Below are positions 35,521 to 60,995 of a stretch of 64,000 bases of DNA, piece after piece (within the stretch, counting starts at the first letter, position 1; the number at the start of each line of letters is the position of its first letter). Source of the stretch: Isoetes taiwanensis (Eukaryota; Streptophyta; Lycopodiopsida; Isoetales; Isoetaceae); assembly GCA_021234155.1 (NCBI GenBank), contig JAJEKV010000002.1:24668617-24732616 (forward strand), in the 5' to 3' direction. The position numbers were made by a program, and so were the translations under genes. Under the pieces are notes generated by a model. That model had not been told where the DNA came from. It was given only the letters and a program-made list of their open reading frames with translations, and ran no database searches.

Positions 35521-36297
35521 GTCTCACATTGCGCCGCACCAATAATGAACTTTTCATTTTCGGGTCTGGCGGCGGCGTGTGAGACATTGGCTCTAAATGG
35601 GTTAAACTTGTCCAATTTTGGTGATATAAGGGTCTAATGGATGGGACTCATCGAAGTTAGCAGAATTAACCCTTTATTTGGTCGATTTGGAATTTTGGGC
35701 ACTTTTGGGGCATGGTCTCATACGTTCGCGCCCGGACCAATAATGAACTTTTCATTTTTTCGGTCTGGCGGCTTGACGTGAGACATCCTCGAATTGGCCT
35801 AGGATGTCTGTTTTGACTAAAACAAAAGCTAAAACTTACTAACTCAACTTAATTAAGTAACTTCATACACTTATAATTTACTCTAAAACACTTTGTATTA
35901 AACAAAATTTTATCATTTACGAAATTAATAAGGCTCCCCTTTGATATGACTGGCTAAGTGCATATCTTTCTTCATTAGAGTTACTCCCTTGGCGTGTACT
36001 GTGCAGACTGTTGAGTCTTCAAAATGTTGGACCAATTTTTGCTCTGCTGCTTCTTGAACCTTGGTCTCTGCTCTGGATTCGCCCTCTCCTCTTCTTGTAT
36101 CTCTCGCTCTATCTGCTCGTACACTTCTTGGGTCTAATATACAAATTTAACTAATCCTTACCTTAAAACTCGATCTAGCATGTTACCTTTTTTGAAATTC
36201 ATCAAGTATTAAGGTGTTTATGGCCTAATGTCTCACACGTTGCACCCAGATCAAAAATGGGAGTTTCATTTTTTCTCAACTGCTGACGATGTGAGAC
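35521..36297 (-). other. Three ~65-nt stem-loops in element A leader (unit 1)
   Basis: Three copies of one palindromic motif lie at 35,521-35,585, 35,715-35,784 and 36,230-36,297. Each begins GTCTCA.AC, ends GTGTGAGAC or a variant, and pairs over about 20 bp around a loop containing AATGAACTTTTCATT, itself a small hairpin. They sit between PBS and the first frame, the untranslated leader of the element's RNA. Role unknown; packaging or dimerisation signals occupy this place in other retroelements. Confidence 0.7.
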
Positions 36298-42759: not shown

Positions 42760-43172
42760 TATTACTAGAAATTTAGACAAAATGTTCAGCCTGCATCAAG
42801 TCTTCAATATCAAAGTAACCCTATTTAGGCATTCAACAAATAATGTACAAGCAGCAAACATAATTCAACAATAATATTCTTGTAGAGCCTAAAATTAAGA
42901 CTTTGGCGTTCAAGTTATAATATACAATCCTGGCTAGATGTTACAACAAGATGGCTAATGAGAAGGGTAAAAAGAAATAGAAGAAATACTAAGATAAGCT
43001 AGCAGCCAATACTAAGATAAAGAGGAGGACAGACATGCTCAGAATAGCACAAATGCATGAATAGAGCACAACGCATCATGCATATTTTAACCTATTGCTA
43101 CAAAAGACAACATGTTACCTAATTTCAAATTTGAAGCAGGATACTATGGCACTTGCAAGCAGATTGGAGATC
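42760..43172. other. Spacer between Helitron and element B
   Basis: AT-rich flanking DNA with no feature except the target site AGATC at its right end (43,168-43,172). Confidence 0.5.
43168..43172. other. Target site duplication of element B, left
   Basis: AGATC directly before the left LTR; it matches 56,283-56,287. Confidence 0.88.
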
Positions 43173-44806
43173 TGTGACGGTCCAAGGGAATATACGCCAT
43201 AAATACGTATATTCCTGGATCCGTCACCATACAAGTCTATCTTTATAGCCTTGTATACCATAGATTGTGGCACTAGGGGGCATGGCTAAGTTATTCTCAT
43301 AACTTAGCCAACCATAGGTTAAGCCATTATCCACGTGGCCTTAACCTATTGGGGCACCGCCACACAGGACTCACCCGATTGGTGCCACGTGGCATCCTAG
43401 GTGGACCTAACTTATATAGGCATAAACCCTAACCCTAGACCTCTTTCCAGCCCTAGCACCCAGAGACTCACCTACTTGTTCGAAACCCCGTTTCGAACAT
43501 CGTCGCTATGGCATAGGCTGGTAGCAAGAGCCCGGGCAGGGGTAGACCCGTTCTTGCAGGAGGAACAGCAGCTTGTGAGTCGAAGACCATGGAGGCACAC
43601 GGATCTGGAGGGAGAGCATCAGGAGCAGGTATGTAGGGTAGTAGTTGTGATAGCCCATCTGGAATTAGCATTCCAGATGTGCTAGTATCTTGTATCTAGA
43701 GTAGAGCCATCCTAGAACCCGTATTCAACATCTTGAACCCTAATCAATGAACCCTAACCATTAGTTAGATTGTATGATTAGGTTAAGATGTTCTTCTTAT
43801 GATCATTCTTAGGATATGATGATTATGTGATGTTGGTTGATCATGTTTGCTCCTCTTGTATTGGGAAGGGGGGTAGAGACCTAGGGCCATATGTAGTATG
43901 CTCCTAGAGTAGATCCCTTAGTTCCTATTAGTTGCGGCCTGTGCATAGGAGCCCACCAGGCTATGGAGGCTATGATATGACTCACACCCGGATAACGGGG
44001 CTAGAGGGAAAGTGGAGGGAGGATCCCCTGCAGTGGGGGGCCGAGGGGGATCCCATAGTGGGCTAGGCTTATGGTGGGTCACCGTGTGGGCCGAGCATGG
44101 GTCCGACACCTCCCCCTGGGGGCAATGGTGTTGCCCTGCCTCGAGAGCTGCAAGGGAGGGCTTGGCTCGCTTTGGGGGTTCGGTCAGTGCGAATCGCGGT
44201 GTCGCCACGATTCTCTAGGCAACGGCACCTCTAGACCCGGGAAGGAGAGATGCAACCCTTCACGCCTCATCGGACCGAGGGAGATGCAACCAGGCGGTCT
44301 CGATGGGTGATGCCCGCGGATTGCGTGATCCGGAAGGCTAGAGTCCCTGTCAGAGCCTGATCTAGCCCCACCGCAAAGTATGCGGGAGGGGGATGGAGTG
44401 GTCAACCCTAGCCATTGTTCTATGCCAGCCCTCGCCATTGCCATGACTCGGTCTGCTCTATCTTGAGGCCTAGCCCGTTGGTCACCCTCCTTACGAGTCT
44501 GAGCCGGGGTAGGAGCTCTCCTGTTTTATGGTTTGTGATTATCATCTTTGCATTGGTTTATGTGCGATGCACTACTCTCCGAGGTAGTATTTGTATATGT
44601 TTTATGCTAGTTGGACGTGTTATCGCTTCCCTTTGTTATAGGAGCCCATAGGGGAAGGCATAAAGACACCTTCGTGTTCCCTCCCCGCACTAAGAGTCAC
44701 CTCAGAGTGCGGGGTAGACGAAGGGCCCATGCGGTTGCTGAGCCGGATGGGGGATTTCCTGCCGGGTATGCGGCTGGGCGCCGTATGTTTAGCAGGGAGC
44801 GTCACA
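43173..44806 (+). repeat. 5' LTR of element B
   Basis: 1,634 bp, TGTGACGGTCC…GGGAGCGTCACA. Differences from the right LTR are mostly small changes around CAG/CTG; other positions are nearly identical, which implies a recent insertion. Confidence 0.92.
43412..43440 (+). promoter_or_regulatory. LTR B core promoter: TATA box plus telo-box
   Basis: TTATATAGG (43,412-43,420) is followed by CATAAACCCTAACCCTAG, which contains the telo-box AAACCCTAA. The same arrangement is in the right LTR near 54,892-54,920 and in LTR A. Confidence 0.6.
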
Positions 44807-44807
44807 A

Positions 44808-44819
44808 TGGTATCAGAGC
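44808..44819 (+). other. Primer binding site of element B (initiator tRNA-Met)
   Basis: TGGTATCAGAGC, complementary to the 3' end of plant initiator tRNA-Met, starts 2 nt after the 5' LTR. Confidence 0.92.
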
Positions 44820-45381
44820 AATGTTCTTGGCTGACCAAGAACTAGCACTGACCATAACCATGAAGTAGTCTAACAGGCCTATAGGGGTGTGAAATAAACA
44901 TTTCCACCATCGAACCGCGAAAATGGGGGAAAAATTTTCTCCTAGGTAGTGGGTCAGGACTTAGGTTAAGTGTTAGACGAAAGTTAAGTGAGTCAAACTC
45001 ATCTTCTAGTAAATTGGAGTGAAAATCATGCATCTGCATCAAATTTCACCTACATTGGGTCGAAGAATCATCCCAATCGGAGACCCAGGTGAAAAATGGC
45101 GCAAATCCATAATTCACACTTCAAACCATTAGGAAATTGGAAATTTCAAAGGTATAATACGAATTTTTAGGTGTATTAAGAATTAAACATATATTAAAAT
45201 TAAGGGTACTATGGGGTAATTAATAAGGGGGGCTAATAAGTAGGCCTATTAATGGTAGGAGAATATTCTCAGGGGCCCTTCCTTTTAAATATCTCTGACA
45301 CCTCATTTTTTCCCTCCAAACTTTCCTCTACCTTCTCTCTCTTGACCAGCCTATCCCCACCTGTTTTCTAGACCGTTAAAT
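44820..45381 (+). other. Element B leader / 5' region of the H3-like frame
   Basis: Non-coding. It includes GGGGGAAAAATTTTCTC (about 44,925), also present in the element A leader, an AT-rich stretch (45,140-45,300) and a pyrimidine-rich tract (45,305-45,360) just before the start codon of the H3-like frame. Confidence 0.55.
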
Positions 45382-46443
45382 ATGGCTCGAACCAAACAAA
45401 CCTATAGGAAGACTGGCCCTAGGCCTACCCTCTCCATGGCGCAGGCAGCAGGGCGGCATGTAAAGAAGATACCGAGCACCCTCACGGCCCAAGAAGGGGA
45501 AGAGCTTCCCCTACCAGCGAAAGGCGGCGACGAAGTCAGACACGATGCCAGAGAGCAGCCCCTCGCTGCGGGAACACAAAGAACCGACGACCTCGCCACT
45601 TCGGGGCCATGACACCGGCGGGAGGAGCAGAGGAGGAGCAGGTCCGCAGGTGGATCGGGCTGGCCTTCCAAATGCGGCCAAGGAAGAAAGGCAAGGAGAA
45701 GGTTGCGGAGTGGCCAGAAGAGAGGGCCGCAAGGAGGAAGAGGGAGCGCGAGGAGGAATGAACCGGAGGAGCGGAGGACAAAGAAGAAAACCATCGTCCC
45801 CACCGAACCGTCGCGGATAGAGGAGCCTCCCCCGCGAGAGGAGGAGCAGTGGAAGGGGAAGAAGAGCAGGAGGAAGAAGATGAGCAGGGGAAGGAGCGGG
45901 ACCCGGAGACCACCTTACCCAAGCAGGGCCCAAGCCACCTAAGGTGGTAAAGAAGCGTAAGGCGGGCGAGCCGGCCTTCGCCTTTGAAGGAGGACTGCCT
46001 CTACGGGCGCCTCAAGGCATACCAAGAATACCTTCGCCGGTGGACAAGGTATAATGATTATAGCATGTAGAACGCCCAGCGACCGTGGAGGGAGGCCGGC
46101 CGCCAAAGAACCAGCCCGCCCGCCCACGGCCGAGAAGCCGAAAAAAGACCCACCATGGGCCTAACTTCGGTACACTCCGTGTCTTCAGGGAGATTAGACA
46201 CTTTCAGCGGTGCACTAATCTCCCGATTAGGAAAGGCACCTTTTGAGCGACTCATCGCGGGAGGTGATGCGGCGGTTAGATCGCGGGCTTCACAGTGGTG
46301 ACGTCGCTCACAACTTCGAGTGTTGCAAGTAGTCGGCGAGGCCGAAGCTCACCCGGTTGTTTGAGGAAGGGAACCCTGCGCGATCCACGCCGAAGAGGGT
46401 GACCTTGATGCCCAAGGATATATACTTGGCGTCGCATCCATAA
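45382..46443 (+). pseudogene. Histone H3-family protein inside retrotransposon B
   Basis: The frame opens with ATG in good context (A at -3, G at +4). The translation after Met is ARTKQTYRKTG, identical to the histone H3 tail at positions 1-6, 8 and 9 (ARTKQT and RK). A long charged tail follows (45,415-46,120), with basic runs such as RPRKKGKEK and RRKRERE and an acidic run EEEQEEEDEQ. The H3 histone fold begins at about 46,166 with GTLRVFREIRHFQ (H3: GTVALREIRKYQ), then TNLPIRKGTF (H3: TELLIRKLPF). It continues in shifted frames with ERLI, LFEEGNP and CAIHA, and ends KRVTLMPKDIYLASHP and TAA at 46,441 (H3: KRVTIMPKDIQLA). It is about 350 codons against 136 for canonical H3. EIRHFQ with TNL recalls centromeric H3; MPKDI recalls canonical H3. 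At least three frameshifts are present, some at CAG/CTG-type error sites, so it may be intact in reality. Confidence 0.85.
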
Positions 46444-47110
46444 AGGAATACCCTTGAGGATGCATTTTTGTCCAAAGTAATGTAATTATTAAGTCTCCCA
46501 TAAATATAATTTTGTTGTAAAGTGACTTCAATTTTTGTATAAAAATGTGTTTGGGTTGCTCAAATTTTAGTTTAGTTGTAGCCATCATGATTGTAAGCAT
46601 CCAAATAGAAAAATTTAGTAAAAAGTACTATAGGCAAATTAGTCAAATTTTCGGCCAAAATAGCGAAATCGGAAGGAATGTCTTGCTTGACCTTTTCAGC
46701 CCTTGATTGAAGGCCCAAATTCGCATAGCCATCCGGTTTAAGCCATGTTTGCCCAGATTTTGCCAAATTAGCCCAAGTAAACATCCAAATTAGGTTAGAA
46801 AATCCTAATTAAGCATGCTAGGACCTTCAAATTTCCCAAAAACCGATTATAGAAGCGCCAAACACCGAAATCGGAAGGGTGTGCGAAAACAGCCTTTCCG
46901 TCCTTGACGGAAGGCCCAAATTCGCATAGCCACCCGGTTTCGTCCGTTTTTGCCTAGAATTACCAATTTTCACCCAACAAACCGCCATGTAGTATTTCTT
47001 GCCTTGCTTTGTCTAGAATTGCACTTCATGGTAGCTCATTTGGACACCGGGGCCATAGATTTGGAGTCTTCCCCATCAAGAACCTTTTTGCCGCGGAAGA
47101 CGAGGCACCC
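46444..47110 (+). other. AT-rich spacer after the H3-like frame
   Basis: Non-coding. It starts with an AT-rich stretch like a plant 3' untranslated region (46,480-46,620, with CATAAATATAATTTTGTTG) and contains the direct repeat at 46,664-46,985. I see no domain. Confidence 0.55.
46664..46985. repeat. Direct repeat pair, ~201-bp period, in element B spacer
   Basis: Blocks at 46,664-46,785 and 46,865-46,985 share CGAAATCGGAAGG, GAAGGCCCAAATTCGCATAG, CCACCCGGTTT and GTTTTTGCC with ATT. No coding role seen. Confidence 0.7.
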
Positions 47111-47114
47111 CTAG

Positions 47115-47124
47115 TCTATAAAAG
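47115..47124 (+). promoter_or_regulatory. TATA box before second extra frame of element B
   Basis: TCTATAAAAG followed by GGCCC lies 109 bp upstream of an ATG at 47,233. It suggests an internal promoter, so the second frame may have its own transcription start. Confidence 0.45.
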
Positions 47125-47232
47125 GGCCCTCATTTGTCATTTTCTCCCCCATCGAACTGCTCCTAGCTCTCTTGGCGATTTTCTAGCTCCTTGCTTATTC
47201 TCTTTAGCCATTTTTATACTCCTTACAGCTCA

Positions 47233-48330
47233 ATGGCGCCATCAAGCTTTGTTAGATGGTACAATGAGGCAAATCACATCCGTGAATTCCCCGCTGAGCA
47301 AGCCTTCCATGTCTTCGATCATCACTTTGACCTTCATGCCACCTTGACCGAGAACTCCCCTACTACGATATAATTTGCCGGTATGATCAGCAGGTCTTAC
47401 CACAGGAAGTTAGCTTGCCACCTAGGGGGGGGAAATGGGTTTCTCTAGATTCTCTTGCTCAAGCCATAGGTGGGGATCGGGGGGCAAGAATAAGTTATGG
47501 GATAGAACCCGGAAACATGCGGACTACATGACTGTAAGCATCATAGGCATACCGTGCGTCTCAAACCAAGCAGCCTTAGCTTTGTTCATGCGATGCAGGC
47601 GATTAACCAACGAGGAGAGCCGTCAATTCAACCTTTGGATTTGGCACCTCTCGACACTCGAGGGGCCGCCGGATAAGCATCCGGAGATCCAGACCACGCG
47701 ATCCTAACACCACGGCTCCACATCGAGACAAGCGCGGTGGCAGAGGGAGCGAGGATTATGAGGAGGAAGAAGAGGAGAACCCAAGTTGGGGAGAAAGGGA
47801 AGCGAGAAAGAATGGAGAGGCCTAGACTCGACGATCAGAAGCGACCAGGCGAGACCGAGCCACCAAGGGGTATCCACGAGCCTCACTCCGGTGATCGCCG
47901 AGGGTGAGGAGTACATACCGCCAATGACATCCTCAACCTCCCCTATTGTCAAGAAGAAGGCCTCGTGGTCGACGAACTCCTAAGCCTAATGGCAAAAGCG
48001 AGGGCAGCGACTTCATCGACTATGATTATCAAGAAATTCAAGGGAGGTGGCCGGCGACACTCCTATGCGAGGGGATACTATGTCGGACATTCAAGCCTAC
48101 CAACGGATAAAGGCGGATGTACCAGCAGCAGCAACCCATCATTCCAGAAGAGGAATTCCAAGAGATACAAAGCAGGCTGTACAAGCCAGGGAAAGGCCCA
48201 AGTTCAAGCTCAAGTCGACCAGTGCGCTCTAGAAGCATGCGGGAAGCACCTGGTAGTATCAACGGAGAAAGCGGCAACAATGTGGAGGGACCAACGAAGA
48301 TCTCGTCGCACTAGATGTTTTTGGTGAAGC
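47233..48330 (+). pseudogene. Uncharacterised protein in element B, between H3-like frame and gag
   Basis: It begins MAPSSFVRWYNEANHIREF and runs through several frames. Later pieces include GGKWVSLDSLAQAIGG (47,410-47,470), a glutamate run EDYEEEEEENPSWG (about 47,754-47,795) and SDIQAYQRIKADVP (48,070-48,120). The WY/IREF opening and the KWVSLD piece recall plant proteins annotated as putative plant transposon protein, a weak impression only. No catalytic motif is visible. Frame changes are frequent. Confidence 0.4.
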
Positions 48331-48968
48331 CGCCGAGGAGGAGGGAGTCGGGGGAACTTGGCCAGGGGGATGGGATAAGTCACTTAGGTACTATCTCCAG
48401 GTCCTTAGCCGAGGCGAGATGGTAGTTCTTCACAAGGAGTTCAGCCCAAGAGGAGAAGAATCCGTCAGCGCCCTAATCGCACTCTCGGGGGTTCGGTCGT
48501 ATGCGCTAAGATGGATTATGGAGTAGACCATGTCATCCTCTTCAAGAGATCAGTAGCACTTCACGCTCTTGACTTTGCAAAGGGGCCACCTCGGGGGGGG
48601 CACTTGTCGATGAGTGGCGGCAAGCGCACGGAACTCCCGGCACCCACGGTGGCAAGAGCATTGGAGGGAGGGTCGGGCGGCTAGAATCCTGCGGAGAATA
48701 TGGGCAAGGGCACGGATTGGGGAAAATCAAGGACTTTTTCAAGCGACATCGTTGATGGAAGATTTGGGGTCCTAAGTTAATCAAAATACATTGTAACTCC
48801 TTTTTAAGTATTATCATGTAGTTCATTAAGTGTACCCATATATACTAATTAATGTATTACCATGATTTTGACTTGTAAATGAAATTTTCATATGATTTCT
48901 TTTGTACCTAACAACAATTTAGTTGTAAGCAAAAATGATCGTTGCCTAACCTAATAACATGTATTAAT
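48331..48968 (+). other. Spacer before gag
   Basis: The first half may be the decayed end of the preceding frame. From 48,750 it is AT-rich and non-coding, with TTTAGTTGTAAGC near 48,917, a motif also found after the H3-like frame at 46,567. Confidence 0.5.
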
Positions 48969-50400
48969 GATCAATCCTTGCGACAAGGAACTCAAGTCAC
49001 GGGATCTCAAGATCAGCACAAGCCACGCAATTGGGTACCAAGGAATTTGTTTGGCGGGGAACAAGAAGATGTTGAGCGGGGATATGTCACGAGAGGCGAT
49101 CCAGCGCAAGGTTGGTGCAGGATGAGGAATCGGATGCAACACCTCATCAAGCTGGGCCACACCTCTCATGAATGCCGGGAAGATGGTCACCCACCTCCAC
49201 CTTGTTTTCGAGGGTGGTGGCGAAGTCCCTCGGCCGAGGAAGGGGAGGGGCAACCAAAGGAGCGTCGGGGATAGGAGAAGGAAGAGGAGAGCGAGGAGCC
49301 CATCATCATCAGCCCCGGCTCATCGAGCCGGTTCTTCGGTGAGGACAGCTCTAGCTCAAGGCAGTCCCGGTCGACACACCTAAAGCGAGGGGAAAAGAGC
49401 AAGAAAGACGGTGATTATCGAGAAAAAGGTGGATAGTGCTATGAGCAATGTATGGAAGACAAAAGGCTTCGGCAGTTCGAGGGGAAGGACAGATCAGGCA
49501 TGGAGGCTGAAGCATGGCTTGATGAAATGGAAGAGTTTGGCAACTCATACGGTATGAAAGACAAGGACATAGGGAAAGTTGCTACGACTAACCTTATTGG
49601 ACGGCAAGGATCGGTGGAAGGGATATGCTAAATCCAACAAAGCTGAAGAGGAACAAGCTGCGAGGTTTAAGACCTTGACAAGGCTTTCCATAGAAGCACT
49701 ATGTGCCAAGGTCTCATACTAGTAGACAGATCAGCTGATTTCTGAGTTGAATCGAGGGTAGCTTATCGGTGGCTAAGTATCTTGAAGAATTTATGAGGGC
49801 TCGGCTGAATGTTCCGGAGTCTCGAGAGAGGCAAGCCGTGGATACTTACATTGAGGGGTTGAGCGGCAATATCAAGAGGCTTGTTAGAGCAATCAACTAA
49901 AGTCGGTCAGCCCGGGCCGAAGATAAAGCTATAAGTTTGGAGGAGGCACCAGCAACTCAGCCAGAGAAGCGATCAACCCGGGGGTAGAGTTGAGGCGCAT
50001 CGGGGACAATATCGGGGTAAGCAATCAGCGGCTACACCATCAGGAGTCAGCAGCAAAGGTAAGGGTCGAGCAAAGCTTTTGGGGACCGTAAGCCCTGAAG
50101 CGCTCGAGGCGGCGCTCTTAAGCGCGTTCCTAAAGACAGTCTACCGAAGGAAAAGAGCAGGAATGCATTGAGAAGAAGTTATGCTTCAGGTGCTTCCAGC
50201 CGGGGCACGGACACATGATTGTCCATTAGGTCATGCGAGTCAGCTTTGGCGAGAACTCTTGGATTGGGACTCCCCAGCGAGGCGGGCGAGGGCGATGACC
50301 AGCAGGAGGGCCCGCGACTTCATAGGCGGTGAGTGTCACATATGTGCAAACATTGAGTCGGATGAGATAGAGAATCGATCAAGCTGTCATGGCGGCTGAT
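48969..50400 (+). pseudogene. Element B gag (capsid and zinc knuckle)
   Basis: Gag forms the retrotransposon particle. The capsid begins near 49,500 with MEAEAWLDEMEEFGNSYGMKD, followed by VATTNLIG, typical of Ty3/Gypsy gag (usually EAExWLxxMEKxF). RYLEEFMRAR-like and RQAVDTYIEGLSG pieces follow (49,770-49,870). The nucleocapsid zinc knuckle is CFRCFQPGHGHMIC (50,185-50,225, C-x2-C-x4-H-x4-C). The part before 49,450 is basic and serine-rich. The frame is broken many times. Directly downstream is the protease. Confidence 0.8.
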
Positions 50401-50780
50401 GGGATCATAGATAGTAATCCTTATGTAGTCCTCATAGATACACGGTAGCTCTCATAATTTTGCATCTCCTAGATTGTTTGCTCTAATGAAGAATAAGGTA
50501 TTGAAGTCTAAGCCAAGGCCCGGTAGCTATGGCCCTTGGCGCCATTCGGCACACTAAGGGGAGGAGGATCACCTTTGACATAGACCTTAGTGGGGCTAAG
50601 TGGCCGATGGGGAGAGAAGTCATGGATATTGGAAGGTATGATCTTATTGTGGGAATGGAATTCTTGAAGCCGACTAAAAGCAGTAATTGATTGTGGCCGG
50701 AGCAGAAGTCACCATGGCACGGACGGCAACAAGTTGATAGTCAAAGGTAGAAGCTAGATTCTCCCATGCGGTGTATTTCT
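50401..50780 (+). pseudogene. Element B aspartic protease
   Basis: The active site reads VLIDT followed by SSHNFASPR (about 50,430-50,475). The family pattern is LIDTGSSHNF; the glycine is disturbed by a base change at ACACGGTAGC. KGRRITFDIDLSGAKW and YDLIVGMEFLKP follow, typical of the protease end. It cleaves the Gag-Pol polyprotein. Confidence 0.75.
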
Positions 50781-50984
50781 TTTAAAGCGACTAAGGAAGA
50801 GCATAGAAAGGAATAAGGTGGATTACATCTTGAGGATGGAATCGGTGGAGCCAGGCAAGCGGGATGGAAGTGACACAAAGGGAAATCAGCTGCCCAGGCG
50901 GAATAGCAAGGCTTATTTCAGAGTGGGGATGTATTTCGGATGAAATCCGCATTTGCCACCTTATAGGGGTGTGGAATGTGAGAT

Positions 50985-51640
50985 CACATTGGCTCCGGAT
51001 GAAAGAAAACCAGTAAGCGCCATATAGAATGAGCATCAGGTGGTGAACTCAAGAAAAGTATTTTGCGAGGAATTGCTCGAGCTTGGATTTATAAGAGCAA
51101 GTGTGTCTCCTTGGGAACACCTATACTCTTTGTGAAGAAGAAAAGGCGGGAGCTTAAGAATGTGCATAGACTATCGCCCGACTCAATAAGCGAGACGATA
51201 AAGAATAAGTATGCATTACCAAAAGGCGGATGACCCTAATGGACCGATTACAAAGGAGCAAAGGTATTCTCTAAAATCGATTTGAGGTCGGGGATACCAT
51301 CGGATAAGAATTAAAGAAGAGGATATCCATAAGACGCTTCGAACGCAGCGGTATGGTCACTTTGAGTTCTGATAATGCCCTTTGGACTATCGAATGCTCC
51401 AAAGAGCGTTTATATCGCCTCATGAGCGACATCTTTGAGACTTCTTGGATGAGTTTGTTATTGTCTTCTTCGGCGACATCACGATCTCAACAAGTCCCTT
51501 GAAGAGCATTACCCGGCATCTCGGGGAAAGTGTTGGACAAGTTGAGGCGTCATCGGTTGTATGGGAAGCTCTCTAAGTGCCACTTTGCAACAGGTAGGGT
51601 GGAGTACTTGGGGCATGTAGTAACATCAGGGAATCTCCAC
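50985..51640 (+). pseudogene. Element B reverse transcriptase
   Basis: Motifs in order across frames: TPILFVKKK (about 51,115-51,145), CIDYR-like block (about 51,165), IDLRSG (about 51,280), MPFGLSNAP (about 51,375-51,405) and FLDEFVIVFFGDI (about 51,445-51,485). The last block is where YxDD should be; it reads FFGD, so one catalytic aspartate appears changed. Given local sequence quality, this could be error. The domain copies element RNA to DNA. Confidence 0.82.
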
Positions 51641-52280
51641 AGATCCATCTAAGATTGAGGCAATAGTTGATTGGCCAGCTCAAGGAATGTGGCGAAGTAA
51701 AGCTTTTCGGGTTGGCGGGATACTCTGAGAAAGTTCGTGAAGGACTTTGCTAAGTGGGCGTCCCCCCTGTGGGACCTCACTAAGGCCAAGAAGATTAAGG
51801 ATTGGGCTAGCCATTGGTTAGAAAGTCAAGCTTCTTTTGGGAAGCTTAAAGAGGCCTTAACAACACACCGGTGCTTGTTCTCCGGATCGAATAAGGATAA
51901 GTTGGTAGCAACGGATGCAAGCAAGATAGCAACGAGGGCGATCTTGATGCAAGAAGGAAGGGTAGTCGCCTACGACTCGAAAGAAGATGAACGACGCCAG
52001 AAGCAACGCTACCCAACCCATGATCAGGGGAGCTGCTAGCCATTGTCGGGGCATTGAGGATATGGAGGCATTATTTCTTTGGGAAGGAAGTTTCGGTTAG
52101 ATCGATCACGAGCCTTGATATCTTTTCACCCACCACTCCTCAACTTAAGGCAAAGGAGGTGGATGGAATTCCTTGAGGAGTGCAATTTGATATTATATAT
52201 AAGCTGGTAAGCTTAATGTTGTAGCGAGATGCCCTCTCTAGGAGGCCATTTCGGACAAAGGGCATTGTAATCACGATTTC
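51641..52280 (+). pseudogene. Element B RNase H
   Basis: After the connection block (KDFAKWASPLWDLTK, 51,737-51,790) comes LVATDASKIATRAILMQEGR (about 51,900-51,960), where TDAS holds the first catalytic aspartate. VVAYDSK and a RYPTHDQ/ELLAI block follow. It removes the RNA strand during reverse transcription. Confidence 0.78.
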
Positions 52281-52429
52281 CACTCTTCGAGTGAGTTCGG
52301 CAAGAAGATTGAGGAGTCCTTGCCAGCCCATGTGGACTTCAAGGAGGTGTGGGAAAGCCTTTCCAAGGAAGCCGAAGAGATAAGGGCGGGGAAGCCTTCA
52401 AGCATTATAAGAAGGAAGGCAACTGTTGT

Positions 52430-53430
52430 ACCATAAGCATAAGTTGTGTGTGCCCGAATCTTGGGGGTAAGGAAGTTAATTCTTCATGACACACATAACA
52501 CCCAATAGCGGGGCATCTTTGGCTTCATGAAGACATATTTCAAGATTGAAGTAGCTATACGGCCGGGAATGAAGAGGCGATATTTTGCATATATTCGGGA
52601 TTACCCGGTTATGTCAATGAGACCAAGGCGAACAACCCGGTTCGGGTGCTTTAGAGCCATTGGGGGTGCCAAATGCAAAGTGGGAGGTCATAAGCATGGA
52701 TTTCATCACGGGACTCCTAGAACTCTTGAGAGGCAAGGATGCATTGATGGTTGTCGTAGATAAGTTATCTAAGATGGCACATTTAGGTGCCTTGCAAGGC
52801 AACCGGACACGCATTGAATCTTGCCAAGTTATTCGTAAGGAGATTTTTTAGACTCCATGGCATGCCTCGGGAGATAATATCCGATAGAGACTCTAAGTTT
52901 ATGAGTGCCTTTTGGCGGGATCTCTTTAGCACCATCGGGCGAAGCTCTCCATGAGTCACGGCATATCATCCCCAAGCAGATGGCGGGACGGAAAGGGCCG
53001 AATCGGATCATTGAAGACATGCTTGAAGCTATGTGTGGAACAAGCAGTCCAAGTGGGATGAGTACATTCACTTGGTGGAATTCGCCCTACTTGATTACTT
53101 AGCGGGGAGTCATCTCAGATGTAAGCCTTTCATGGTGAATTATGGCTACCGGTGCTTAACCAGGATACGGCACAATCCTGTGTCCAAGGTAGAAGTATCC
53201 CAGCCAGATGTTAGGGGACATCACGGCAGCTAGTAGAGGAGGTAAGGGGTTATTTATTGGCGCAAAAGAAGTCGGCAGAAGAGTGTAGCCGACAAGCCAC
53301 GGGACCGTAAGGGGAGTTTAAGGTGGGAGATCTGGATTTGGTTGAAGATCAAGGTGAAGCAAGCCAAAGGCTGGATTGGGAGCTGCAAGAAGCTTGCCCC
53401 TAGGTGGGCTGGGCGTTCAAGATTTTTAGA
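52430..53430 (+). pseudogene. Element B integrase
   Basis: The zinc-binding part is seen as HDTHN…GHLGFMKTY pieces (52,485-52,540) and a RDYPV block. The catalytic core has MDFITGLLE (D1, about 52,697-52,720), IISDRDSKFMSAFWR (D2, about 52,872-52,918) and an E block read as HPQADGG…RANRIIED (about 52,968-53,015). Together these form the D,D-35-E core that joins element DNA to the chromosome. Several frameshifts are present. Confidence 0.82.
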
Positions 53431-53579
53431 GAGTGGGCTCTCAAGCCTACAAGTTGGATCTTCCAGCCCATCTTAAGGTCCACAAGGTCTTCCCGTAAGT
53501 TTATTAAAGAGGCACAATCCTAACCACGAGGAGGTTTTGGATACTCCAACTTTGTTGGAAATGGCCGGAGGAGCAAGTG

Positions 53580-53745
53580 GAAATAGTGCACGAATTGCTT
53601 CTTGATAAGTCATTCAAGAAGACTAGGAGGTCAGTTCCTCCAATATTTGGTTAAGTGGAAGCACTTACCCGTGGAAGATCGACATGGGTATTGAAGCAAG
53701 ACTTGGAAGCAATACCAGGAGTTTATGAAAGGAGTTTGATGGGTG
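53580..53745 (+). pseudogene. Integrase-linked chromodomain of element B
   Basis: QFLQYLVKWKHLPVED (about 53,632-53,680) followed after a frame change by TWVLKQDLEAIPGVYERSL matches the chromodomain core YLVKWKGxxxxxxTWE. Chromodomains at the integrase C terminus are the hallmark of chromoviruses and in several families bind histone H3 methylated on lysine 9, steering integration to heterochromatin. Its presence in an element that also encodes an H3-like tail is notable. Confidence 0.85.
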
Positions 53746-54638
53746 AGTGGAGTCTCAGGCTTGGTCGACCCGACTTGCCAGGTGGTTAGCTAGTATGTTG
53801 TTAGTTAGCCTTGAGCCTGGCGCATGCATTCTAATTAGTAGGGTGCATGTGCCAGAACCTTGGATCGTGTGGGCGATGATGGGATACGCCTTTAGGGCAT
53901 TCTCTAGGCCACACGCACCAAAAATGCGCATGACCATTAGGGTCATGTGAGTGAGGAATGAGGCATGGTGGGCGATGATGGGACATCGATCGGATGATCT
54001 CTATGCCCACGATGCGGGGAATGCGCACCCTGGCCGTAGGAGGGTCATGGTGAGGCTTAAGTGATCATCTTGTGATGATGGGATCGTGAGACGTTCCCTA
54101 GCTGAAACCCTCGGGGCATGATGCACTGGGGTGTACTCGATCCGGGGGATCGTGTACAAGGTAGCACTCGATCATGGGCAATGATGGGAGCATCTTAAAT
54201 GATCCCTAAGCTCAAATCCGAAAGGGCCATGATCTTGGGCAAGGTAGTAGGACAACCTTGAGCCAGTAGTTCGGCTCAAGGAGGTAAGAGGGTGGTCCCC
54301 TAAAACCACAAAGTATTAACTAAACTAGCGTAATGTGCTCCTTTTGCGGGCAAGTAGAAGGAGGACTTCAGCGAGGCGTTCTGAGAGAAGATAGGGGAGC
54401 CATAATTAGATTATGAACCCTAATAACTCTTATAATAGTATTTTGAATTATTATAAGAAATAACGATGTTAAGGCTATATAATTTTGTATAAGTACAAAT
54501 ATGGCCTAAAATTTTGACTTGAACTAATAAAACTTGATTGCTAAACTAAACTAAAGATTATGACATATTGTTGATGTGTTGCGGGGCATAAGGTAGGTTC
54601 GTCACCTTGGCGCAATCTTTGAGAACTGACATTGTCCT
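53746..54638 (+). repeat. Element B 3' untranslated region with ~100-bp repeats
   Basis: Non-coding. A core GATGATGGGA recurs at about 53,874, 53,973, 54,074 and 54,177 (spacing 99-103 bp) in four diverged units with GATCGTG and GCATG around it. Tandem repeats in the 3' non-coding part are known in several plant Ty3/Gypsy groups. Confidence 0.6.
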
Positions 54639-54648
54639 AAGGGGAGAA
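54639..54648 (+). other. Polypurine tract of element B
   Basis: AAGGGGAGAA immediately before the right LTR. Confidence 0.88.
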
Positions 54649-56282
54649 TGTGACGGTCCAAGGGGAATATCGCCATAAATACGTATATTCACGGATCCGT
54701 CACCATACAAATCTATCTTTATAGCCTTGTATACCATAGATTGTGGCACTAGGGGCATGGCTAAGTTATTCTCATAACTTAGCCAACCATAGGTTAAGCC
54801 ATTATCCCGTGGCCTTAACCTATTGGGGACGCGCCACGGGACTCACCGATTGGTGCCACGTGGCATCTAGGTGGACCCTAACTTATATAGGCATAAACCC
54901 TAACCTAGACCTCTTTCCAGCCCTAGCACCCGGAGACTCACCTACTTGTTGAAACCCCGTTTGAACATGGGTCGACCAATGGCATAGGCTGGTGCGGCAG
55001 CCTGGCCGAGGGCAGACCCGTTCTTGCGGGGGAGGAGCGGCTTGTGGGTGAAGACCATGGAGGCACCACGGATCTGGAGGGAGAGCATGGGAGCAGGTAT
55101 GTAGGGTAGTAGTTGTGATAGCCCATGCGGAATTAGCATTCCGGATGTGCTAGTATCTTTGTATCTAGAGTAGAGCCATCCTAGAACGTATTCAACATCT
55201 TGAACCCTAATCAATGAACCCTAACCATTAGTTAGATTGTATGATTAGGTTAAGATGTTCTTCTTATGATCATTCTTAGGATATGATGATTATGTGATGT
55301 TGGTTGATCATGTTTGCTCCTCTTGTATTGGGAAGGGGGTAGAGACCTAGGGCCATATGTAGTATGCTCCTAGGTAGATCCCTTAGTTCCTATTAGTTGC
55401 GGCTGTGCATAGGAGCCCCACCGGGCTATGGAGGCTATGATATGACTCGGCACCGGATCTTGGGGCTAGAGGGAAAGTGGAGGAGGATCCCCACGAGTGG
55501 GGGCTTGGAGGGGGATCCCATAGTGGGCTAGGCTTATGGTGGGTCACTCGCGGTGTGGGCGAGCATGGGTGAGACACCTCTGGGGGCAATGGTGTTGCCC
55601 TGCCTCTCGAGAGCTGCAAGGGAGGGCTTGGCTCTCGTTTTTGGGGGTTGATCGAGGTGCAGATGGTGTGTCGCCCACGATTCTCTAGCCGCATACGGCA
55701 CCTCTAGACCCAGGAAGGAGAGATGCAACCCTTCTGCCTCATCATCCGGACGGGGAGATGCAACTGGAGCGATCTCGATGGGTGATGCCCGCGGGATTGC
55801 GTATCCAGGAAGGCTAGAGTCTGTCGAGCCCTGATCTAGCCCATGCAAAAGTATGCACGGGAGGGGCGGATGGAGTGGTCAACCCCTAGCCATTGTTCTA
55901 TGCCAGCCCTCGCCATTGCCATGACTCGGTGCTGCTCTATCTTGAGGCCTAGCCGTCGGGTCACCCTCCTTCTGATGCGAGCCGGGGTAGGGAGCTCTCT
56001 GTTTTATGGTTTGTGATTATCATCTTTGCATTGGTTTATATGCGATGCACTACCCTCCCAGGTAGTATTTGTATATGTTTTATGCTAGTTACGGCGTGTT
56101 ATCGCTTCCGCTGTTATAGGAGCCCATAGGGGAAGGGCGCAAAGACACCTTCGTGTTCCCTCCCGCACTAAGAGTCACCTCGAGTCGCGGGGGTAGGCGA
56201 AAGGCCCCATCGCGGTTCTTGAGCGGATGGGGATTTCTGCCGGGTATGCATTTGGGGCAGTATGTTTAGCGAGGGCGTCACA
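54649..56282 (+). repeat. 3' LTR of element B
   Basis: 1,634 bp, TGTGACGGTCC…GCGTCACA, collinear with 43,173-44,806 and followed by the target duplication. Confidence 0.92.
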
Positions 56283-56287
56283 AGATC
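56283..56287. other. Target site duplication of element B, right
   Basis: AGATC, matching 43,168-43,172. Confidence 0.88.
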
Positions 56288-58545: not shown

Positions 58546-59397
58546 CTAAATTCTCATAATAAAATAGCTTCACAAATGAACACAAAGGAACGTCCAAATG
58601 AATAGGCATCACAGCTTACACCCCATAAACCAATTCAAATGGTGTAAATCCTGTAGCCAACTTATAAGTACACCTGAAACTCCATAAGGCACCTGTCAAG
58701 GCTTGATGCCAATTTCGTTGATTATCCTTCACTGTTTTAGCCAAGATAGCTTTCAGAATTTTGTTAGTAGACTCAGCTTGTCCATTTCCCTGTGGATAAT
58801 AAGCAGAAGCTTGCACATGTTGGACACCAATCTTTTCTGTTAACTGCGCTACTACTTTTCCCATGAAATGAGTTCCCCGATCGAACAAAAGAATGGTTGG
58901 AACACCAAACCGAGAAATCAAATTGTGATAAAGAAAGCTTACCGTGGTATTTTTTGTAGCATGCTTTGCTGGAACTGCTTCTACCCACTTCGTAAACATG
59001 CATGTGGCTGCCAAGATATACTTATGACCTTTGGAAGATGGAGGATTGATAGGCCCAATGTAATCCAATCCCCACATATGAAACGAACCAACACTCAAAA
59101 TAGGATGGAATGGCATATTATTGTGGCATGTTAATTGTTCATGCTTTTGACACTTCTCACATTTGCTAACAAAGGCTCTAGTATCCTTGTAAAGAGTTGG
59201 CCAATAATATCCCCAACTGTGGTTCTGGCTGCAAAATGCCCCTGACAATCGTGTGCTTGCTGCAACAAATTATGAGTTTGCTGACCAGCAACACATTTAA
59301 AAAAGAGACCTTCCATAGTCCTCTTATAAAGAATAGCTTCATGCACCATATAACTAGCTGCTTGTACTCTAAGAGCATGCTTTTGTTGCTTTGACAA
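58497..59397 (-). pseudogene. Element C integrase
   Basis: The N-terminal HHCC zinc site is split by a frameshift: HDCQGHF (H-x3-H, 59,131-59,397 frame) and CEKC (C-x2-C) in the next frame. The catalytic core (59,248-58,616) has the full triad: D62 in LDYIGPI, D123 in LFDRGTHF and E159 in NGQAESTNK, with 35 residues between D2 and E. A stop TAA at 58,616-58,618 interrupts YGV/AVMPIHLDVPL; similarity then continues in frame to about 58,497. No chromodomain is seen after it. Confidence 0.9.
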
Positions 59398-59439
59398 TGA
59401 TGAAGGATAAGTCTGATCTTGTAAATACTATATATATTG

Positions 59440-59928
59440 GTATATCAAAGATCCACGGTCTCAATGAACCCTGCACAATACTCCATTATCCTGAAATGCT
59501 ACTTGCTGGTTTGTTTCCTCTTCTATTTCAGCACCACTACTCAAATAAGCACTTGGATTATGAGCTCCTTGAGCCATCTTAACATACTTCAACTCAAATT
59601 CCTGTATGATAAGAGCCCATCTTGTAAACTTAGGATCTTGGACAGTCTTGTTGTAAATGCATGGCAATGGGTTCACATCCATATGAATGTAAACTTATTG
59701 TACATTTGCTGAATTCCATTGTGAAGGAAGAAGATAATGTCTAAATTTATTCAAGGTCCACTTCAATGCCAACCCAAGATGCTCCACATGACTCCATTTC
59801 TGCTCTTGTGGAGTTAACAACCTACTAGCATAGTAATTCACATCATAATGCTTTTGCTGATTTTTCTGATATAGTGTGACAGCCAAAGCTTGCTCCCAAA
59901 CTATAGAAAAATGAAATGGCTCACTCAT
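59440..59928 (-). pseudogene. Element C ordinary RNase H, two catalytic residues missing
   Basis: It lies between RT and integrase, the usual place of the Ty3/Gypsy RNase H. Conserved framework includes YYASRLLTPQEQKWSHVEHLGLAL, KFRHYLLP and ARW-like FTRWALIIQEFELKY. Where the family has TDAS the sequence reads SIVWEQAL, so the first aspartate is lost. The glutamate (VEHLGLAL) and second aspartate (HMDVNPL) remain. The final ADxLS reads AYLSS, losing the last aspartate. It is probably inactive and acts, if at all, as a spacer or tether. Confidence 0.8.
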
Positions 59929-60995
59929 TCATGGAGAGGAATCAGCAAAATTCTCTCTCTCAATTGTCCAAGGCAGCATTCAAATGCTTCTTGAGCATCC
60001 TCCTTCCATCTAAAATTCTGCCCTTGCTTCATACAATCCACAAGTGGCTGGGTTACTTTAGCAAAATTGTGCAAATACCTCCTACTAAAACTGAGTGATA
60101 CATTTGTAGGTGGTTTCACCTTCTCCAAGGCTGCAATCTTACCATGATCCACTTGTAACCCATTTTCTGAAACATAATTGCCCAATAGTTTTCCTTCTCT
60201 AGTGAAGAAAATACACTTAGTAGGATTCAAACTTATACCATACAATCGGTATCTTTCAAGAACTTTTCTGAGATGATCCAAGTGATCCCTTCTCGGATTC
60301 AAAAACACTGTTAAGTCATCTATAAAGACTCTCAAGAAGTCTAAAATATCATGAAAAGCATAGGTCATAGCTCGCTGAAATGTGGCTGGAGCATTTGTGA
60401 GGCCGAAAGGTAATACCTTATAAGTATAGATGCCAAAAGGTGTTCAAAAAGTCGTCATTGCTTTATGTGGTGGATAGATTTGATCTGATTATATCCTGCG
60501 TAACCATCCAAGAAAGAATAGGCCTGATTTCCTGCAAAAATATCCAACAAGGTGTCTATGAATGGTGTAGGAAAATGATCTCTTTTGGTAGCTTTGTTGA
60601 GATCCCTGTAATCAATGCATACTCGGATTGAGTTATTTGGCTTTCTCACTGGTACAATAGAACTAATCCAATCTGAATTTGGCACTGGTACAATAAATCT
60701 CGCCTCCAAAAGCTTCATGACTTCAACCTTTACTTGCTCCTCTATTGTTGGACTCATTCTCCTTTGAGCTTGTTGGACTGGTTTTGATCCTTGTTTCAAA
60801 TCAATGGTATGAACCACAACCTTTGGTGGAATGCCTTTCAATTCTTTGTAATTTCTTGCCAAAACATCCCTAAATTCTTTTAACAAAGATATCAAATCAC
60901 GTTCCTCCTCTTGAGTAAGATCTCCTCCAATAGTAACCAATTCTTCTTGATTTCCTTGAGAAATATTGATGTTCTTAACTGAATGTGTAATGAAT
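59925..60995 (-). pseudogene. Element C reverse transcriptase
   Basis: Motifs in order on the minus strand: KELKGIPPKVVVHTI and QQAQRRMSP, WISSIVPVRKPN, IRVCIDYRDLNKA, FLDGYAGYNQI (to 60,455). After a frameshift come VLPFGLTNAPATFQRAM (about 60,415-60,365) and VFIDDLTVF (about 60,330-60,305), where F-I-D-D is the intact catalytic YxDD box. The thumb and connection (RYLHNFAKVTQPL) follow. The RNMGIP-like start and absence of chromodomain point to the Tat/non-chromovirus branch. Confidence 0.9.

Follow-up and report, generated by a model that had tools for sequence, protein, structure and literature searches.

The 64,000-nucleotide stretch of Isoetes taiwanensis DNA analysed here (the window) carries a Ty3/gypsy element at positions 43173-56282, with all of its recognisable parts on the plus strand. 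Its long terminal repeats (LTRs), the 5' copy at 43173-44806 (TGTGACG...CGTCACA) and the 3' copy at 54649-56282, are about 1.63 kb long and 89.5% identical (K2P 0.114 over 1604 sites), and the target duplication AGATC stands before the first (43168-43172) and after the second (56283-56287). Blastn aligned 43173-44807 with 54649-56283, and each end was cut back one base by eye. The 5' LTR is followed by a primer binding site, TGGTATCAGAGC (44808-44819), which we take to be of the initiator tRNA-Met type. Between this site and gag lies ORF1 (45382-46443), a decayed, frameshifted reading frame derived from histone H3, and then a probable relic of a second extra frame, ORF2 (47233-48526), which begins MAPSSFVRWYNEANHIREFP and whose end was set by eye. 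The ORF2 relic was recognised from its sequence and from an ORF with a like start in the paralogue L073; direct tblastn of ORF2 against the window gave no match at 1e-3. Further downstream, tblastn with proteins of related elements located a gag, zinc knuckle and protease relic at 49401-50684 (L021 gag, E 5e-51) and, together at 50953-53730, the relics of pol: reverse transcriptase (RT) at 50953-51686 (L019 RT, E 6.7e-31), RNase H and integrase at 51701-53566 (L019, E 1.6e-106; Pfam RT_RNaseH_2 8.3e-8) and the chromodomain region at 53632-53730 (L019 residues 649-682, E 1.2e-4). The preliminary description of this locus had placed an H3-family frame between primer binding site and gag, inside both LTRs and the target duplication, and these boundaries bear it out.

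The ATG at 45382-45384 starts MARTKQTYRKTG, and the tail MARTKQTYRKT (45382-45414) matches that of H3 at eight of the first nine residues after the methionine, as had been noted. The relic of the histone fold (46187-46443) is recognisable from its sequence and by tblastn, in the pieces REIRHFQ...TNLPIRKGTF, LFEEGNP and KRVTLMPKDIYLA, and ends at 46443; tblastn with the intact ORF1 of the paralogue L065 covers 45382-46431 at E 1.2e-30. Since the fragments of the fold occupy more than one frame, the copy in the window is dead. Thus the frame first described is a pseudogene here, and it is in copies elsewhere that an intact ORF1 is found.

In the searched genome (1,658,258,908 bases in 1110 contigs), the block 45300-46460 was matched at 39 other places with 80-87% identity (40 scored places including the window), and 38 of the 39 cover its whole length, so the H3 block is not an assembly join. 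Eight of the 39 were fetched; in five of them ORF1 runs uninterrupted for 361-364 codons, and the other three are broken. The intact ORF1 of this lineage consists of the H3 tail MARTKQTYRK, about 245 mostly charged residues and the H3 fold. In L065 (363 aa), Pfam Histone is matched at 1e-28 (100.5 bits, cut-off 26.4) and PDB chains of H3 at 4.6e-29, and the score of residues 1-45 against the host H3 tail was reached by none of 2000 shuffles, which upholds the initial judgement that the likeness to H3 is not due to chance. The tail signal lies in the first 10 residues; what follows them does not reach significance (405 of 2000 shuffles score as high for L065, 183 of 2000 for L070). A search of the genome with the L065 protein gave at least 112 matches at 74-100% identity, and among those listed 79 of 112 lack an internal stop and 66 of 112, counted by eye, are both end-to-end and stop-free, counts that cover the best candidates alone and are thus lower bounds skewed to intact copies.

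The lineage in the window is not the only one with such a frame. When the genome was searched with Pfam Histone, at least 150 places scored; the best 15 have about 164-165 bits, and the eight of these that were fetched are all plain H3 genes, while the other 135 listed have 144-155 bits and many lie within open frames of 300-494 codons. We fetched 49 of these 135, with a preference for long frames; judged by linker or C-terminal sequence, every one belongs to the element type, and in 30 of the 49 a start could be recognised and ORF1 is open over 394-459 codons (the ORF1 of L010, for example, scores 148 bits against the cut-off of 26.4). Their N-termini are of four kinds, MPRFKL, MANTKS, ME.VKQ and MARTKG, plus variants, and behind them follow a conserved domain of about 220 residues (the N domain), a variable linker that is acidic and glutamine-rich in many copies, a basic linker and the H3 core, which closes the ORF; 20 of the 30 were aligned with host H3 for this description. 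An ORF1 of 361-364 or 394-459 residues with its tail interrupted or replaced thus differs from an H3 of about 135 residues with a continuous tail. In AlphaFold models the N domain has a pLDDT of about 90, with no convincing match to any known fold and no homologue at E <= 0.001 among 5.8 billion proteins; the H3 part of L049 folded alone has low confidence. Compared with the H3 tail, the N-terminus of MARTKG outscores 1983 of 2000 shuffles and that of MANTKS 1986, and those of ME.VKQ (507 of 2000 as high) and MPRFKL (108 of 2000 as high) are not distinct from shuffles. As judged from these scores, the N-termini agree with an origin in a complete H3 that had its tail opened or exchanged, with support in three of the five lineages. 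One ORF1 (L012:1572-2909) is without the usual stop and extends about 22 residues beyond the H3 core, and just behind the H3 ORF1 of another copy we noticed by eye a LINE-like reverse transcriptase ORF (L016:2799-4529).

An LTR pair, a target duplication and a primer binding site were found in three of the four copies tested, namely the window copy, L010 (duplication CAATC, LTR K2P 0.0455) and L013 (direct repeat GTGACC as target duplication, LTR K2P 0.043); in the fetched stretch of L009 neither an LTR pair nor a primer binding site was found. Wherever gag could be read (L009, L010, L013 and L073 of the window lineage), it lies downstream of ORF1 on the same strand. The order in L009 is ORF1, ORF2, a short ORF and gag. 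The L010 element has ORF1, gag, protease, RT, RNase H, integrase and chromodomain, with parts lost and with no ORF2 between ORF1 and gag; its RT, RNase H and integrase were identified by Pfam in L019, and Pfam Chromo is matched there at 633-681 with 32.9 bits (cut-off 25.1), whereas the corresponding parts of the window are tblastn relics and its chromodomain only a relic at E 1.2e-4. The L013 element has ORF1, pieces of ORF2, the short ORF, gag, protease and integrase, with parts lost and without RT. Two details of these elements may be added: the gag frame of L010 opens 265 bases past ORF1 (L010:2981-3245), without ORF2 and the short ORF, ORF1 and pol being long and open, and in the L013 element a single open frame (L021:128-2272) joins gag, protease and integrase, by eye as after an internal deletion of RT.

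The ORF2 of L073 weakly matches that of other lineages, by tblastn at 1.6e-4 (25% over 145 aa), and the gag of L073 matches theirs in three stretches at 44-63% identity. Among the ORF2 matches listed, at least 14 of 90 were seen by eye to lie directly behind an ORF1/H3 match, two of them behind ORF1s of the MARTKG type, and the order of H3-bearing ORF1, ORF2 and gag is found, partly or wholly, in the MPRFKL, MANTKS, MARTKG and window lineages. The only public homologue of ORF2 found is the protein P0121 (43% identity), on an ENA contig of 2953 bp; its best match in the genome studied here is at 62%, so the ORF2 family is probably present in another organism as well. By means of this foreign protein we located L074 (contig C1014), a more diverged copy in which a decayed N domain and H3 core were recognised by eye ahead of ORF2.

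From residue 45 of the H3 core on, 77-80 of 91 residues of host H3 are kept (85-88%) in one copy from each of the four other lineages, and 56 of 91 in the window lineage. At 17 sites that we take to be the DNA-contact and H3-H3' contact residues, L065, L013, L036 and L049 keep 17 of 17 and L010 keeps 16. In L065 all 17 contact sites are kept, compared with 39 of the 74 others (p 8.5e-5, with a list drawn up after the sequence had been seen); in the four other lineages the difference between contact sites and the remaining ones is not significant (p 0.07-0.21), since nearly all residues are kept. Changes within positions 86-90, in or beside the chaperone site, occur in one copy each of all five lineages: the host SAVL that chaperones read has become FAIL or HAIL in four of them and LTTR in the window lineage. 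The window lineage also lacks the KPHRYRPG segment ahead of helix alpha-N, and this, with the LTTR site and the 56 of 91 residues kept, makes loading by host chaperones doubtful for it. As for the marks of the tail, K4 and K9 are kept in the window lineage and K27 and K36 are not recognisable from its sequence; in the MPRFKL and ME.VKQ lineages a K4/K9 context cannot be recognised.

Between element copies, pN for the H3 core was 0.00-0.11 against a pS of 0.22-0.94 over 16 pairs, and neutrality is rejected, for example, in L049/L050 (0 of 17 substitutions non-synonymous, p 4e-11) and L010/L027 (5 of 39, p 3e-16). In two pairs of the window lineage the whole ORF1 has 10 of 31 non-synonymous substitutions (p 1e-7) and, in L070/L071, 3 of 25 (p 6e-12); for the H3 part alone the counts are small (1 of 6, p 0.003; 0 of 2, p 0.05). 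The N domain is constrained too, less so than the H3 core, which evolves more slowly. All copies in these tests are open, those of the window lineage having been picked by DNA similarity and the others by histone score, a choice which favours conserved cores. As far as such counts can tell, the ORF1s of several chromovirus lineages are under purifying selection at the protein level. The preliminary description had proposed to test whether other copies carry the frame intact and under purifying selection, and both are seen (five of eight fetched paralogues open; 3 of 25 in L070/L071); its term cargo holds in that the frame lies within the element, not in the sense of something incidental to one copy, for several lineages have kept it under selection. 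In close pairs, the pS of the H3 core falls below that of the N domain in the same copies (0.24 against 0.57 in L049/L050), for which either codon constraint or recombination or conversion of the H3 part among elements could account.

Between element H3 and host H3, pN is 0.09-0.13 and pS about 0.9; with pS saturated, either the capture is old or what was captured already differed greatly from these host genes. In a 99-column tree, the H3s of the host and of angiosperms group together in a single clade (SH-aLRT 98). A free quick tree nests the host H3 clade among the element H3s (support of 92 for host with MARTKG, ME.VKQ and part of MANTKS), and constraining the 34 element rows to one clade gave a log-likelihood higher by 4.45 (p-AU 0.78), from a tree with long branches, rooted on a single CENH3 (Arabidopsis). 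A single capture of H3 would thus be allowed, and is slightly favoured, by the tree.

A full-text literature search found no core histone in a retrotransposon, which agrees with the preliminary description, to whose author none with an H3 was known; the word "histone" is also absent from the main texts of the I. taiwanensis (PMC8566536) and I. sinensis genome papers. Chromoviruses, lycophyte members included, share with the present elements LTRs, primer binding site, gag, protease, RT, RNase H, integrase and chromodomain, but the available text of their descriptions (PMC2864245, PMC3350952) mentions no histone, and here gag is preceded by extra ORFs, of which the first has an H3 fold. The closest parallel among plant gypsy elements is in orchids, where a captured AlkB RNA demethylase has likewise been fixed as a conserved extra ORF of host-like epigenetic type (PMC9289625), the captured product there being an enzyme and here a histone; there 121 angiosperm genomes were screened and 15 unusual domains came to light, with no histone among the nine named, and the main text has "histone" twice, neither time as a captured domain. 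Single viral histones, as the available text of PMC9145170 presents them, include the H3s of a xenomavirus, of the Dishui Lake phycodnavirus and of phycodnavirus MAGs with N-terminal extensions of about 170 aa, and a bracovirus H4. Like ORF1, these are lone and host-like, with a conserved fold, an odd or lengthened N-terminal tail and small changes at the alpha-2 chaperone site; unlike it, they belong to DNA viruses, whereas ORF1 belongs to an endogenous multi-copy element that moves through RNA and has its tail broken by a folded domain or an insert of about 245 residues. The nudivirus Orf1 in the same source resembles ORF1 in having a C-terminal histone fold within a longer protein, the first part of which is without known relatives, but it is an H4-H3-like doublet at 30-40% identity that ends a protein of 1111 aa in a baculovirus-related virus. 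What appears to be new here, going by these comparisons, is a retrotransposon lineage with its own core histone; host-gene ORFs in gypsy elements and lone viral histones were already known.

On the whole we lean, with somewhat better than even confidence, towards reading ORF1 as a predicted tail-swapped H3 variant that would pair with host H4, enter chromatin and there either resist silencing or tether proteins of the element. A host H3 coding sequence, from mRNA or from an intronless gene, would have been taken up by a chromovirus lineage and retained ahead of gag, as ORF1, for the action of its product on chromatin. In the window lineage the tail would then have become the charged insert of about 245 residues behind MARTKQTYRK, and in the others a new folded domain of about 220 residues with linkers. 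The protein would dimerise with host H4 and enter nucleosomes, with its foreign N-terminal part projecting, so that either the chromatin of the element or its target gains a histone without the K27/K36 (in some lineages K4/K9) tail sites, or the projecting part tethers ORF2, Gag or integrase to chromatin. The surfaces that are kept are consistent with H4 pairing and nucleosome entry, and the replaced tails with the evasion of tail marks or the tethering of element proteins; for single viral H3s, the available text of PMC9145170 reasons in the same way, from a similar identity and similar chaperone sites, that they enter host nucleosomes. A more specific version can be offered only tentatively, that the element-encoded H3, without the silencing tail sites, would form nucleosomes of its own on element or target chromatin and shield it from H3K9/K27 methylation, its projecting domain serving as an address for Gag, ORF2 or the chromodomain integrase.

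It could also be argued, though we think it doubtful, that the protein acts off DNA as a mimic of H3, titrating H4, H3 chaperones or the writers and readers of the H3 tail and so weakening silencing while the element is active. The changes at positions 86-90 in all five lineages compared, the LTTR of the window lineage at the chaperone site and its retained start ARTKQT.RK would suit such a decoy, which would need neither the DNA-contact nor the H3-H3' residues that are kept as well (17 of 17 in four lineages, 16 of 17 in L010). A role in packaging, with the H3 fold and basic linker binding element RNA or cDNA in virus-like particles or the pre-integration complex, strikes us as unlikely: ORF1 does lie upstream of gag on the same strand, the linker adjoining the H3 core is basic and packaging is one role discussed for giant-virus histones in the available text of PMC9145170, but the strongest constraint falls on an octamer-type H3 surface, with 85-88% identity to the host in four lineages, which packaging alone would not need.

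A lengthened loop 1 is a feature of CENH3. In the elements loop 1 is as long as in host H3, with no gap in the 91-residue comparison and no tryptophan there, so the centromeric role raised in the preliminary description finds no footing in it. That a CENH3-like histone steers the element to centromeres is very improbable: EIRHFQ..TNLLI and RVTLM of the window lineage also occur in Arabidopsis CENH3, but the four other lineages have 85-88% identity to canonical H3, and a host CENH3 was not found in this analysis. Plant transposable elements do capture gene fragments, and the window copy and three of the eight fetched paralogues are broken, yet a passive, functionless piece of a host gene, or contamination or misassembly, is scarcely credible beside purifying selection in several lineages, 66 of 112 listed matches end-to-end and stop-free, LTR pairs and target duplications.

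As a rule, retrotransposons are acted on by chromatin and silenced through marks on host H3. A lineage with a conserved H3 of its own reverses the usual roles, and offers a test of whether a mobile element can alter the histone that wraps it. If ORF1 is the tail-swapped variant that we favour, the lineages amount to a natural experiment in H3 design, with the tail swapped in several ways and the nucleosome-facing surface kept, which separates what the nucleosome needs from what regulators read. Annotations of this genome may have taken such ORFs for histone genes, or vice versa.

The window holds parts of other elements as well. A second, more diverged H3-like relic (...VQHFEDSTVCTVHAKGVTLMKKDMHLASHIKGEPY) lies at 35928-36146 on the minus strand, in another minus-strand element with LTR-like repeats near 28.0-28.6k, 37.3-38.7k and 40.7-42.1k. 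Between 35.3k and 42.1k the repeats of this element recur about 3.4 kb apart, a spacing that suggests a tandem duplication or a product of LTR-LTR recombination. RT and integrase relics at 58604-60940, also on the minus strand, belong to a further Ty3/gypsy element.
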